A DNA stretch of 64,000 nt from Paraburkholderia ginsengiterrae (lineage in GTDB: Bacteria; Pseudomonadota; Gammaproteobacteria; Burkholderiales; Burkholderiaceae). The notes beneath the pieces were generated by a model that had not been told where the DNA came from, ran no database searches, and worked only from the letters and a program-made list of their open reading frames with translations. Shown here piece by piece: positions 18,641 to 64,000 of this stretch. Where the stretch lies: NCBI RefSeq assembly GCF_001645125.1, contig NZ_LXKA01000044.1, positions 101,450 to 165,449 of the forward strand, in the 5' to 3' direction. Position 1 is the first letter of the stretch; each line of letters starts with the position of its first letter. The position numbers and the translations under genes are program-made.

Positions 18641-19912
18641 CTACTTCGCGCCCATCAGTTTTCCCTCTGACGCTCCTTTGGATTGCTGACTAGCATCTTT
18701 GTCCGGATCGTCCGTTTCGCTAAGCTCCTGCCGATAGCGGTGAACGTCCCGGGTAACGAAGCCAATCTCCCGGCTGGGAATATCGAACCATTCCGGGTGT
18801 TCAAACGAACGTCGGATATCCTCGAGGCCGCTCTCCCAATGCTCGCGCATCGTAGCTTTGCTGAACTCATAGTCCTTGTAATGTCCCTCGAATGTCTTGT
18901 TCTTGTAGATCAGGTGGACGACGTTTACAGCGCTCCCGTCCGCAACTTTCCGTGCCTCGCGAATTAACGGGTGGACGAACTGGATCTTTTCAGGAATGTG
19001 CTCGAGCAGCACCTTTATCATTTGCGCGTGTTTTTGCCTCTGTGACATGAAGGCAGTGATCGCCCTGGTACGGCTCGAATACTGAATATCTTTGGTTCGT
19101 TCACTGACGTCCAGAAGATCGCCTGGCAGTTTGCCTCGCGAACTCCACAGATCAACCTGGAAAACGAGCGTGTCCTTATGCTGACTCTCTCTGATAATCT
19201 CAGTAAGTGGAGTATTTGAAACCAGCCCGCCGTCCCAGTAGAACTCTCCATCGATCTCGACAGCTGGAAAACCTGGCGGCAGAGCACCCGATGCAATGAA
19301 ATGCTCCGGAGCCAGCCGCATTGTCGAATTGTCGAAGTAGACGAGATTTCCCGTTCGCACATTGACTGCCCCAACGGACACACGAATGTCTCCGTTATTA
19401 ACGCGATCGAAGTTTGCATACTTCAGGAGCGTTTCGCGTAATGCCGAGGTGTCGTAGTAGCTGACCTGATCGGGGCGTTCTTTTCCGTGCGTCGCGAATG
19501 ACAATTGCATGCGTGGGGAAAAAAATCCTTCCTGACCTTCCAGCAAGGTACGCGTTGCAGACCATGCGCTCAACCATTTGCGCCCGATGTCTTCCACCTC
19601 AGGCCAAACCGGAATGCCCGCAGCAGTTTGCGAGAAGAAGGTCGCCGGCTGACTGATCGTATTCCAGAAGCCGCGCAGCGCATCGACACGGTCCGCAGGC
19701 GCGTTGCCTGCGATAATCGCCGTGTTCAATGCACCGATGGATATCCCGGAAATGCGGGTCGGTTCGATACCAGACTCTGCCAGCCCCTCATATACACCGG
19801 CCTGATATGAGCCCAACGCCCCTCCCCCCTGGAGCACTAATCCGATTTCGTCATATGAGGGGAGCTTCAGGTGCTGGGGCTTCTGCAGCTTGTTACGCCG
19901 GCTCGCATTCAT
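18641..19912 (-). CDS. Patatin-like phospholipase
   Basis: 423 residues from the ATG at 19912 (MNASRRN); the frame runs 10 codons further but would overlap the upstream bdh stop. The patatin catalytic dyad is visible: S58 in GISIGAL and D227 in WDGGLVSN, with the oxyanion Gly-rich loop LQGGGALGSYQAG at 28-39. Length and the C-terminal DUF3734-like part fit bacterial patatins found with beta-hydroxybutyrate genes. It lies 10 bp after bdh in an adc - bdh - patatin operon. The association suggests a role in polyhydroxybutyrate or short acyl ester turnover, though phospholipase activity is the generic family annotation. A close paralogue is at 62369-63622. Confidence 0.88.
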   Translation of the reverse strand: MNASRRNKLQKPQHLKLPSYDEIGLVLQGGGALGSYQAGVYEGLAESGIEPTRISGISIGALNTAIIAGNAPADRVDALRGFWNTISQPATFFSQTAAGIPVWPEVEDIGRKWLSAWSATRTLLEGQEGFFSPRMQLSFATHGKERPDQVSYYDTSALRETLLKYANFDRVNNGDIRVSVGAVNVRTGNLVYFDNSTMRLAPEHFIASGALPPGFPAVEIDGEFYWDGGLVSNTPLTEIIRESQHKDTLVFQVDLWSSRGKLPGDLLDVSERTKDIQYSSRTRAITAFMSQRQKHAQMIKVLLEHIPEKIQFVHPLIREARKVADGSAVNVVHLIYKNKTFEGHYKDYEFSKATMREHWESGLEDIRRSFEHPEWFDIPSREIGFVTRDVHRYRQELSETDDPDKDASQQSKGASEGKLMGAK

Positions 19913-19922
19913 TCTCGTCTCC

Positions 19923-20705
19923 TTACTGCATGAACCAGCCATGGCTGACTACGACGGATTGCCCGGTAAGCGCACTCGACTCGAAGCCTGCCAGGAATGC
20001 AACCGTGTTGGCAACGTCCGCAACCGAAGTGAATTCGCCATTGACGGTGTCCTTCAACATCACATCTTTCACAACCGCCTGCTCGGAAATTCCCAATGCT
20101 TTCGCCTGCTCGGGGATCTGTTTGTCAACCAGTGGCGTTCTGACGAATCCCGGACATACGACATTTGCCCGCACACCACGCGGACCGCCTTCCTTCGCGA
20201 CAACACGGGCGAGGCCGAGAAGCCCGTGTTTGGCCGTCACATAGGCTGACTTGAGTTGCGACGCTTCGTGCGAGTGAACGGAGCCCATGTAGATCACCGC
20301 TCCACCTTTATTGGACGCGTACATATACTTGAGAGCGGCCTTGGTAGTGAGAAACGCACCGTCGAGATGAATTGCCAGCATCCTCTTCCAGTCCGCGAAT
20401 GCATAATCTTCGATCCGGTTGACGATCTGAATGCCCGCATTCGAAACGAGAACGTCGATACCTCCTAGCCGGCTCACCGTTTCGGCGACACCTGCGTTGA
20501 CTGTTTCTTCGCTGGTCACGTCCATCGCGACGGCAATTGCATTGCCACCGGCGGCGACGATATCTTCTGCGACCCTCTGGGCATTCGCCAGATTCAGATC
20601 TGCAATCACGACCATTGCGCCGTCTGTTGCGAGCTTGCGCGCACACTGTTCACCGATGCCGCTTGCCGCACCCGTAACAAGCGCGACCTTATCATTGAGT
20701 GACAT
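19923..20705 (-). CDS. 3-hydroxybutyrate dehydrogenase (SDR)
   Basis: 260 residues, standard for the family. The NAD-binding motif is [12 protein letters not shown], with NAGIQIV in the middle. The active site Y-x3-K is in [12 protein letters not shown], and the C-terminal signature [18 protein letters not shown] is the typical ending of D-3-hydroxybutyrate dehydrogenase (TGQ..V.SHGW..Q). It oxidises 3-hydroxybutyrate to acetoacetate with NAD. The neighbours are acetoacetate decarboxylase (17 bp upstream) and patatin (10 bp downstream), so the operon can convert 3-hydroxybutyrate to acetone. The gene symbol bdhA/hbdH is commonly used for this product. Confidence 0.9.
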
Positions 20706-20722
20706 AACCTCTCCGTATTGGC

Positions 20723-21502
20723 TTACTGGTTAACTGCGAGTTTCAACGACTCGGCCGAAACGAGGTAGTCATACACCACCTCGCCGACATCGAGTGTGAG
20801 ATTTGCAATGACGTGACGCGCGCCAATAATCTTGCGAACAGGAAGATCCGCGACCGATGCAAGAGCGTGCGGATGCAGTTCGAGCGCTGCGGGACCTTCC
20901 CACGCCCCGATAACATCTACATCGCGTAGAAAGAAGCGGACCAGTTCGCAGATTCTCAAGGAGCCGTCGACATGCGGAATGACTTTGAGAAGGTAATTGG
21001 GCGTACCGGCCAGCTTGCGACATTCGGCGGTCGTGTCCAATGCACGATACTTGTAGCCCATCGTCCCGGTCGCGACACGATGCGTCCCGTAGTCGAGCGT
21101 GCCAAGCAGTGTGTCCTTGCCATCGACGCATAGCCTCGGCGAAGCAAGTTTCTTTGGAAACCCCCAGATTTCCCGTCCACCTGCGATGGGACCTTCATCG
21201 TCGAGATACATCGAATGCGTGAAATTGGCGTGATTTCCATCCGAATCCAGAACCGAGATGACCTGCCCGCTTTCCGTGTAGTCACCAAATCCCGAAGAAT
21301 CAGGCATACGAATGAACTCGTAATGAACGATCGCCTTGTTGACCGTTAGTGGTTCTGGAACGACGGCCTTAAGTGCATCCATATCCGTCTCATACGAGAT
21401 GATGAAATACTCCCGATTTATGAAACGAAAGGGCGGGCGCGGATAAGCAGGATTGTGCACCGGCATCGCAAAAGCGCTCTTGCGGATATCGTCTTCTGTC
21501 AT
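20723..21502 (-). CDS. adc: Acetoacetate decarboxylase
   Basis: 259 residues, close to the family length. N-terminal [23 protein letters not shown] is characteristic, and the Schiff-base lysine is expected in the [12 protein letters not shown] segment. It decarboxylates acetoacetate to acetone and CO2 in the cytoplasm. It is the first gene of the adc - bdh - patatin operon on the minus strand. The promoter is likely in the 290 bp upstream. A deletion-damaged second copy of this operon lies at 62369-63776, where only the first 33 codons of adc remain. Confidence 0.92.
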
Positions 21503-61479: not shown

Positions 61480-62004
61480 TCAAGCGCCTGGAGTGGATCT
61501 GCACGGCGGCACCACGTGCTCCCGAAGGCATTGCAAAACTGGGTCATGAAATGCCCGGTAGATCACAAATGCCATCCACAGCGCCAGCACGCCGAAGCTC
61601 CACCATTGCAGAAATATTCCCCATCCCCAAATGAGCGTCCCAAACGCCGAAAGCGTTAGCCCGCGCTTGGCATCCAGGATGTCGCTCAAAACTTTACCAG
61701 GCTTGAATCCGGCGTCCTCCTTTGTGTCGGCGACAACCAGATCCGTCACGGTGTGTTCAATATAGCGGCGCGATGCTATCAAAAGGCCGATGATTGTTAT
61801 TATCGATCCGGACCGTTCAAACAGATGCCAATTTGATGAGGTCTGCGCAAGGTAAGCGCATATGATCGCCGGACAAACTGTCAGCAAAATTATTGCGAGG
61901 CTGCGGACAATGAAGTCCCATGGCATCCGCGAGGTTCCCTGGTGAGTGTCGCACTTCGCGCAGGTCAAGGGCGCCTGCGCGCGCGGGTTGGTCGGCGGAT
62001 TCAT
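61480..62004 (-). CDS. Hypothetical membrane protein
   Basis: 174 residues. It has about three hydrophobic segments (SLAIILLTVCPAIICAYLA, SGSIITIIGLLIASRR, FGTLIWGWGIFLQWWSFGVLALWMAFVIY) and an N-terminal CxxC (TCAKCDTH), possibly metal-binding. I do not recognise a family. It is convergent with mmsA. Confidence 0.6.
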   Translation of the reverse strand: MNPPTNPRAQAPLTCAKCDTHQGTSRMPWDFIVRSLAIILLTVCPAIICAYLAQTSSNWHLFERSGSIITIIGLLIASRRYIEHTVTDLVVADTKEDAGFKPGKVLSDILDAKRGLTLSAFGTLIWGWGIFLQWWSFGVLALWMAFVIYRAFHDPVLQCLREHVVPPCRSTPGA

Positions 62005-62336
62005 GTTGCGGCCTTTAGTCTGAAATCGAACTTCCTGCCAGTCATCGACATTTATCTGACATGTCTGATAATTGGGTTAAAAAAACCCCGCTTCCACCAT
62101 TGAGCAGTTTGCAAGGGAGGCTGCTCAAGGGCCCGAAGTCAGACTTCAGTTCGTAGCGGGTGTGGCTACTATCTCCGCGCAGGCGACCAAGGTCCACACT
62201 GCCGTGGTTACAACACTTGTGACGGTCAGGAACAGTGCCTAACCTCAACTACGTGGCCACTTTTTCGTGCCTCCTGCATCAAGCTTCAGATGCCTGTGTT
62301 TGTTCCGATCACTACACTCTCGAATCGAATGTAGCC
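62005..62336. other. Intergenic, nothing recognised
   Basis: About 330 bp between the membrane-protein start and the patatin-side terminator. No gene or strong structure was seen. Confidence 0.4.
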
Positions 62337-62369
62337 AAAGGGGACCGCTTGCGCCCGATCGGTCCCTTT
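62337..62369 (-). terminator. Hairpin terminator after patatin paralogue
   Basis: A stem of about 10 bp (AAAGGGGACCG side with CGGTCCCTTT side) closes a 12-nt loop and starts at the stop codon of the patatin gene. Suits intrinsic termination of that minus-strand transcript. Confidence 0.6.
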
Positions 62370-63622
62370 CAAGCGGCGATTTTTTGTTCCACTCCAAGGG
62401 GCAAGACAGGCGTGTCACGATCAGATTGCAGCACGAAGCCAGGCCGGCGATGCACGTCATGCGTCACGAAACCCTCTTCGCGGCTCGGCACATCGAACCA
62501 CTCCCGATGGGCAAACGAATCGCGGATGTCTTCGAGACCGCTTTCCCAATGCTCGTGCATCGTGTCGATGCTGAACTCGAAATCCTTGTAATGCCCTTCA
62601 TACGGCTTGTTCTTGTAGATTAAGTGCACCACATTGATCGCGCTGCCGTCGGCCGCTTCTTCAGCGAGACGGAAAAGCGGATCGGTCCTGCGCAGATCGG
62701 GCGGAACATGCGCGAGCAGCTCATTGATGAACCGCGCATGTTTCTGACGATCCGCCAGCAAGCTGGTAATCGCCCGTGTGCGGCTTGAGTACTGGATGTC
62801 TTTGACACGTCCCGACACATCGAGGAAGTCCCCCGGCGCACGGCCTCTCGCGCTCCACAGGTCGACCTGAAACACTAGTGCATCCTTGTGCTCGGTGTCG
62901 CGAAGCACCTCGGTCAGCGGCGTATTGGAAACGAGGCCGCCGTCCCAGTAGTACTCGCCGTCGATCTCAACCGCCGGAAAGCCCGGCGGCAAGGCACCCG
63001 ACGCCATGAAATGCTCCGGTTTCAGGCGCATTTTCGTGTTGTCGAAGTACACCAGATTGCCGGTCCGTACGTTCACCGCGCCTACGGAAACACGGATGTC
63101 CCCATCGTTGATCCGATCGAAATCGGCGAACTTCAACAGCGTTTGCTTCAGTACGGCCGTCTCGTAGTAACTGACCAGGTTGGGAGTTTGCTTGCCGAAA
63201 CCTGCCATCGGCAAGGGAAAACGCGGCGAGAAAAAGCCCGGCTGGCCCTCAGTCAACGCGCGGCCGGCTGCCCAAAAGCTTGCCCACTTGCGTGACAGGT
63301 CGTGCATTCCAGGGCCCGGAAGCGTCCATGCACCCAGACCACCCACCCAGTCGCGCGGATGGCAGATCGAATTCCAGAATCCGCGTAACGCTTCCACGCG
63401 TTTCTCCGGCGCATTGCCGGCAATGATCGCCGTGTTCAGCGCGCCGATCGAAACGCCGGCGATCCAGTTCGGGTGCAATCCGGCCTCGGCCAGGCCCTCG
63501 TAGACGCCTGCCTGGTAAGACCCGAGCGCACCACCGCCCTGAAGCACCAGGGCAGTTTCGTCGTAGCGTGGCAGCACGAATGCATCCGGCTGCAGGTTAG
63601 TTTTGTTTGTGCTGTTACGCAT
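62369..63622 (-). CDS. Patatin-like phospholipase (paralogue)
   Basis: 417 residues. It shares the layout of the patatin at 18641-19912: oxyanion loop LQGGGALGSYQAG, nucleophile S58 in AGVSIGAL, and the DGG aspartate in WDGGLVSN. The C-terminal blocks FDRINDGDIRVSVGAVNVRTGN and YKNKPYEGHYKDFEFS are nearly the same as in the paralogue. It starts 10 bp after the adc-bdh fusion stop, the same gap as in the intact operon. It is probably still functional. Confidence 0.88.
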   Translation of the reverse strand: MRNSTNKTNLQPDAFVLPRYDETALVLQGGGALGSYQAGVYEGLAEAGLHPNWIAGVSIGALNTAIIAGNAPEKRVEALRGFWNSICHPRDWVGGLGAWTLPGPGMHDLSRKWASFWAAGRALTEGQPGFFSPRFPLPMAGFGKQTPNLVSYYETAVLKQTLLKFADFDRINDGDIRVSVGAVNVRTGNLVYFDNTKMRLKPEHFMASGALPPGFPAVEIDGEYYWDGGLVSNTPLTEVLRDTEHKDALVFQVDLWSARGRAPGDFLDVSGRVKDIQYSSRTRAITSLLADRQKHARFINELLAHVPPDLRRTDPLFRLAEEAADGSAINVVHLIYKNKPYEGHYKDFEFSIDTMHEHWESGLEDIRDSFAHREWFDVPSREEGFVTHDVHRRPGFVLQSDRDTPVLPLGVEQKIAA

Positions 63623-63632
63623 ATTTGACTCC

Positions 63633-63776
63633 TTATTGCATCGCCCAGCCGTGGCTGAGGATTACAGACTGGCCGGTAAAGTATTCCCGATTGATCAAGC
63701 GGTACGGCGGGCGGGGATAGGCTTGATTGTGAACACGCATTGCAAAGGCGTCGTCGCGGATCGAAGTGAGGTTCAT
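63633..63776 (-). pseudogene. In-frame adc-bdh deletion fusion (47 codons)
   Basis: The 47-codon frame begins like acetoacetate decarboxylase (MNLTSIRDDAFAMRVHNQAY... to INREYF, 33 residues) and ends like 3-hydroxybutyrate dehydrogenase (TGQSVILSHGWAMQ, 14 residues). The join is at REYF/TGQS. In the intact operon these segments are separated by more than 1.4 kb. The product can have neither enzyme activity. The start, stop and 10-bp gap to patatin match the intact operon, so this is the scar of one internal in-frame deletion. Confidence 0.88.
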
Positions 63777-64000
63777 ATGGTTTCCTTTACAAGCATCGGC
63801 GCATGTCGCGTTGATCGAATAGTAGAGGCAATGTGCACGCGGCAGCAGGTGTTATTCCTCAACACACTGTTAGTCTTACTGTGTCACATAATTAGTTGCG
63901 CAGTTTGTTGCCGTACAGGAAGAGTGCCATCGTTGCATGAGCCGTTGTCCAAGCAGGATACGCAACGTTGTAATGGAATCAGGAACGTGGCGTTGTGCGC
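63777..64000. other. Upstream region of the damaged operon
   Basis: About 220 bp to the window edge. It probably holds the promoter for the adc-bdh-patatin remnant operon. It is not recognisably similar to the 290 bp upstream of the intact adc. Confidence 0.35.

Follow-up and report, generated by a model that had tools for sequence, protein, structure and literature searches.

How did a 47-codon reading frame that opens as adc (acetoacetate decarboxylase) and closes as bdh (3-hydroxybutyrate dehydrogenase) come to lie just before a patatin gene, and was its frame kept for the sake of that gene? The frame is found at the edge of the analysed stretch of 64,000 nucleotides from Paraburkholderia ginsengiterrae (hereafter the window), which forms the terminal part of contig C35; 224 bp lie between the start of the fusion ORF and the contig end. 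Patatin begins with an ATG at 63622, 10 bp past the stop of the fusion ORF. The coordinates of the features are collected in Table 1.

Table 1. Features of the fusion locus and of the intact paralogous operon in the window
Feature	Coordinates	Strand	Basis or remark
adc'-'bdh fusion ORF, 47 codons, ATG to TAA	63633..63776	(-)	ORF list, alignment
adc start, codons 1-33	63678..63776	(-)	alignment
bdh end: final 14 codons, then stop	63636..63677	(-)	alignment
10-bp spacer containing GGAG	63623..63632	(-)	between fusion stop and patatin ATG
Intact patatin-like phospholipase (predicted), 417 aa, Pfam Patatin + DUF3734	62369..63622	(-)	Pfam
Remaining native 5' region, 97 bp, IS end to fusion ATG	63777..63873	(-)	alignment
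IS701-family element end	63874..64000	(-)	similarity to IS701 copies; contig ends inside
Intact paralogous operon adc-bdh-patatin	18641..21502	(-)	adc 259, bdh 260, patatin 433 aa

By aligning the window with plasmid NZ_CP051517.1 of Paraburkholderia aromaticivorans AR20-38, the origin of both parts of the frame can be traced. The plasmid has the same gene order and the same 10-bp bdh-patatin spacing, and its DNA is 88-89% identical to the window on both sides of the join: 88.9% over 99 nt on the adc side, and 87.6% over 1310 nt from 63677 onward, across the bdh 3' end and patatin. Unlike in the window, its adc (264 aa) and bdh (260 aa) are complete, and its upstream neighbour, approximately 0.5 kb from adc, is an IclR-type regulator instead of an IS. 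A single base separates the two alignment blocks at the join. In addition, residues 1-33 of the AR20-38 adc product were matched at the fusion locus by tblastn (E=7.8e-13), so this match is not due to chance. The claim of the initial annotation that 33 adc residues are fused in frame to the last 14 residues of bdh is thus confirmed. The junction is placed at 63677/63678 with an uncertainty of 1-2 nt, and the two-piece match to relatives breaks at 63677-63679. In ten loci with adc and bdh present (including a copy on contig C328 of the same genome, and one locus, L007, with a frameshifted adc), the anchors of the join are 1430-1478 nt apart; this spacing gives a deletion of approximately 1.45 kb, and the earlier figure of about 1.4 kb holds. 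The two ends of the deletion have only 0-2 nt in common, which points to an illegitimate join and rules out recombination between repeats. Similarly, an IS-mediated deletion was rejected, because the IS701 end sits 97 bp upstream of the fusion start, away from the join. Both ends of the join are homologous to their respective genes, adc and bdh, and stand in one frame, as expected for an operon deletion scar. Judged by these alignments, the fusion is confirmed as a real in-frame deletion scar within the adc-bdh-patatin operon; as first proposed, it is a scar of operon reduction in which the start, the stop and the 10-bp spacing were retained.

The join itself appears private to this genome. 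When 145 genomes, its own included, were searched with 63560-63876, 100 gave a match, and among the matches listed no genome other than its own spans the join; in the other genomes the listed matches stop there, within a few bases. Where both halves occur elsewhere, they are about 1.5 kb apart, nearer to each other in loci that lack bdh, or in other gene copies. A degenerate pattern laid over the join had 0 matches in the genome contig collection, from which the own record was possibly left out, and the 47-residue fusion peptide has no Pfam match.

The same genome holds other copies of the operon. The paralogue in the window had been named as the reference for the fusion locus. It is indeed intact, and its patatin likewise starts (at the aligned ATG) 10 bp after bdh, as had been stated; as a reference, it is a distant paralogue, with a patatin 67% identical to the protein of the fusion locus and an adc 80% identical to that of AR20-38. 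Nearer references are AR20-38 and the copy on C328, in which adc and bdh are full length and patatin is 87% identical to that of the fusion locus. Further adc and patatin homologues are found elsewhere in the genome. Four adc-like matches were obtained in total, the stub being one of them; of the 100 bdh-like matches listed, the three that exceed 45% identity each cover the full length. No stray remnant of the deleted adc/bdh piece was found in the genome. In general, the adc-bdh-patatin operon is redundant in this genome, and the fusion locus is an accessory copy of it.

Upstream of the fusion, the native sequence gives way to the end of an IS701-family element, which, like the near copy on C328, is new relative to the initial annotation. 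The element was assigned from its similarity to annotated copies, its terminal inverted repeat and a 4-bp target site. Its end matches 11 Paraburkholderia plasmid records, with an IS701 transposase annotated under the match in 6 of the 11 rows. The ends of the P. fungorum copy (L060) are inverted repeats (20/25) flanked by CTAT on both sides; its transposase lies upstream and reads outward in the direction corresponding to the operon and, by comparison, that of the window element would also read toward the operon. The IS701 family follows the target rule YTAR, and TTAG at 63870-63873 is the likely target. The last 127 bases of the window recur without a difference at the end of contig C386, and TTAG and CTAA adjoin the two copies of this IS701 end. 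The IS701 transposase had 0 matches in the own assembly, and the contig ends before the gene; such an absence is expected for a collapsed repeat and is uninformative. In two relatives (L055 and L059), homology starts at 63872, two bases past the IS end at 63874; the others align only from nearer the adc start codon. With the IS701 end only 97 bp away, the fusion copy is cut off from the native region further upstream. The window reads AGGAA ahead of the adc start, where 7 of 8 aligned loci read AGGAG, and a promoter scan of 62200-64000 found 0 sigma-70-like promoters (0.5 expected).

The gene that follows the stub looks functional. Its Pfam Patatin and DUF3734 domains are full and score above both cut-offs (E 1.8e-27 and 3.4e-34), and its translation contains GGG, GxSxG and DGG, which we take to be the patatin motifs. 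The spacer provides patatin with a GGAG of its own, presumably a Shine-Dalgarno-like motif. The fold at the patatin start (single minimum-energy structures) has a value of -24.6 in the window, compared to -20.7 to -29.1 in seven loci, and is no outlier by eye. Downstream of patatin, a 174-aa ORF at 61480-62004(-) has no Pfam match.

Substitutions were compared separately in the adc stub (32 codons), the bdh tail (14 codons) and patatin (417 codons), against 19 loci with the whole operon, the C328 copy included; the counts are small, and part of the window branch predates the deletion. The adc stub has 6 nonsynonymous (N) and 1 synonymous (S) private changes, compared to 6 N and 16 S summed over the 19 loci (p=0.011). 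Its mean pN to the others is 0.090 (lowest pair 0.081), approximately eight times that among the relatives (0.011, highest pair 0.075), while its pS of 0.271 compares to 0.328. In the bdh tail, the private changes are 1 N and 3 S. In patatin, pN is 0.064 compared to 0.053 among relatives and pS 0.385 compared to 0.395; its private changes, 20 N and 14 S, include a larger synonymous part than neutrality would give (one-sided p=0.018). The N:S ratio of these changes lies slightly above that of the 19 loci (163:189 summed, p=0.21), which leaves room for some relaxation. When scaled to the number of nonsynonymous sites, change in the adc stub is approximately four times that in patatin on this lineage (6/74 vs 20/955, p=0.008). 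The contrast is significant only for the adc part alone and for this per-site rate: with the bdh tail included, the N:S of the stub is 7:4 compared to about 10:20 in the 19 loci (p=0.15, non-significant), and it does not differ from that of patatin on the same lineage (p=1.0). As far as these few changes indicate, the adc remnant is a piece that has lost constraint, and patatin, on similarly small counts, is probably still constrained.

To place the scar among its relatives, patatin was searched (E<=1e-150) in 145 genomes, giving 89 loci in 72 genomes; a locus with a broken patatin (L069) was added, and the resulting 90 genus loci were classed by tblastn. Adc, bdh and patatin are all carried by 81 of the 90. 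The remaining nine comprise one locus cut by a contig end (L080), six with adc and patatin but without bdh, the broken patatin, and the window. The intact operon that the initial annotation proposed to look for in relatives was therefore found, annotated whole in AR20-38 and complete at most genus loci. A family sample of 399 genomes, in which the own genus is partly included, yielded 47 adc/patatin rows outside the genus when paired by distance; 45 were full-size (799-870 nt) and two were reduced (G160, G234). Unpaired patatin rows (a second copy on G435:C4, G469, G330:C138) and unpaired adc rows (G186, G283:C49, G330:C60, G330:C353) were read as loci, except for G330:C60. In two genera from which 33 loci were fetched, 31 have a full bdh, one is that of G234 and one is cut by a contig end.

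Several reduced loci resemble the window. L126 (G101:C2:1071400-1076000) is a second operon copy, whose bdh is an in-frame 19-codon ORF and whose adc is frameshifted near its end. In L075 (G113), bdh is reduced to an in-frame 33-codon ORF ahead of patatin, and in L153 (G234:C1:2747000-2750800) a 54-codon ORF runs from the bdh start to the bdh end through an unmatched middle; the original bdh stop is lost there, and the ORF ends just inside patatin. As in the window, what is left of bdh at these three loci is a short in-frame ORF immediately ahead of a full-length patatin; unlike in the window, adc is kept (frameshifted in L126) and the stub derives from bdh at either end. The trees place these three loci and the window as separate events. 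In L073 and L077, patatin near codon 15 is joined to bdh codons 1-8; in L072 and L074, the adc frame terminates 8 nt inside patatin; and in L152 (G160), bdh is without trace, so that its loss there is inferred from absence. In the trees (FastTree, midpoint-rooted, support not printed), L072-L075 and L077 form one clade beside the complete L071, and the other reduced loci stand apart; the members of the clade were accordingly counted as one loss and not as independent ones. With this grouping, loss of bdh with retention of patatin appears to have occurred in five lineages: the window, the L072-L075/L077 clade, G101, G234 and G160.

Patatin has also been lost. It is broken at L069; at L158 its match stops at residue 173; at L157 there is no patatin in the fetched 4.5 kb; and in L151 (G063:C133:9400-14600) bdh 1-123 is joined in frame to patatin 246-412, giving a 301-codon ORF. 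Adc is kept at all four loci, of which the trees include only L069. This implies that patatin is not specially spared, and the notion that it always is was dropped. The five bdh losses and four patatin losses came from patatin-led and adc-led queries, respectively, and allow no comparison of rates. The proposal that patatin was kept here for a reason of its own is disfavored by these four loci and by the intact copies of all three genes in this genome.

Other irregular loci were seen in the same survey. Ten adc loci (L141-L150), 84-86% identical to the AR20-38 adc, have no bdh or patatin in the stretch fetched. In L155 (G469:C1:3376500-3381900), adc is without its first 169 residues and has other sequence upstream, and bdh and patatin are kept. 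On plasmid pNK81 of Caballeronia sp. NK8 (L007/L154), adc pieces 1-98 and 77-248 overlap in different frames, which suggests an adc frameshift.

The probable explanation of the fusion locus is the decay of a redundant copy. A single deletion with almost no microhomology fused adc codon 33 in frame with the 14 final codons of bdh, and an IS701-family element ends 97 bp upstream of the fusion start. The stub, apparently free of constraint, would yield no enzyme. Transcription, if any, would come from the IS side or from a surviving promoter; ribosomes would translate the stub and stop 10 bp ahead of patatin, which would be translated from its own GGAG, perhaps aided by termination-reinitiation coupling. 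An assembly artefact, i.e., a chimeric join, might be suspected from the closeness of the contig end, but it is very improbable: a repeat with an exact overlap is the usual place for an assembler to stop, and the 127-bp exact overlap with C386 indicates that the IS701 repeat, and not the join, ended C35. Moreover, the join ends share almost no bases, the missing part was not found elsewhere in the genome, and the stub has private substitutions of its own. That the 47-residue peptide is a selected new small protein is scarcely credible; the frame is open and its bdh-derived tail has changed little in protein, but the adc-derived part has changed mostly nonsynonymously, and the lack of a Pfam match, of any other genome among the matches listed and of any pattern match speaks against it. 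More serious is purely neutral decay, in which the frame survived by a one-in-three chance and patatin is intact because too little time has passed. The redundant copies, the upstream region cut by IS701, the change from AGGAG to AGGAA and the like N:S of stub and patatin agree with it, but the fourfold per-site excess of the stub and 417 patatin codons without a stop do not, and its chances seem somewhat short of even.

A different alternative is that selection held the frame, since patatin output would need upstream translation, by coupling or by avoidance of Rho polarity, and out-of-frame deletions would be purged. Counting one scar per lineage with coding sequence on both sides (the window, L126 with 19 codons, L075 with 33, L153 with 54, and L151), 5 of 5 are in frame, for which the chance is (1/3)^5=0.004, or 0.012 for 4 of 4 without L151; the pattern was noticed post hoc and the scars are few. 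In L126 and L075, as in the window, 10-11 bp still separate the stop from the patatin start. In the available part of PMC12548453, coupling is described as working best where the intergenic distance is small, and polarity as a consequence of lost upstream translation. Against this, L075 and L153 hold unmatched filler, so that only their net frame is known; the L153 frame lost its stop and ends inside patatin; and the frame of L151 cannot have served a working patatin, which lacks residues 1-245 there. In the window, had the join been displaced by one base, the frame would still end 39 bp ahead of patatin, and a displacement by two bases would carry it beyond the patatin start, so the frame matters only moderately. 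With the patatin GGAG also considered, the earlier suggestion that the frame was retained to let translation continue to patatin is not borne out, and selection on the frame is unlikely.

Under decay of a redundant copy, translation coupling from the stub into patatin is still plausible from the sequence, the 10-bp stop-to-start distance being short, as in coupled gene pairs. The trpE-trpD and galT-galK pairs, as far as PMC12548453 was available, likewise have a short stop-to-start distance and a Shine-Dalgarno-like motif for the downstream gene; the window differs in that its upstream cistron is a decayed stub and in that its coupling is putative. PMC5158114 contains all three gene names; its available portions mention the proteins in Rhodanobacter and Myxococcus but do not present them as an operon. 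Our literature search found no paper on DUF3734 and no description of the adc-bdh-patatin operon or of such scars, including in the accessible parts of PMC12548453 and PMC5789663, though one may still exist in print.

As a rule, operon decay is deduced from what is missing; at this locus the cut, its frame and what became of each remaining piece are legible, and relatives offer parallel cases. Seen by itself, the window locus is an ordinary loss of genes from a redundant copy. The reduction of the same operon in several relatives with in-frame stubs forms a parallel pattern that is mildly suggestive. The broader proposal, that the Burkholderiaceae adc-bdh-patatin operon is repeatedly eroded in its middle and that in-frame stubs keep their start, stop and spacing for ribosome-dependent translation of patatin, as leader-like mini-ORFs, is speculative and quite doubtful at present. 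Should a larger survey confirm the frame bias, these scars would offer a natural test of how strongly operon decay is constrained by translation coupling.
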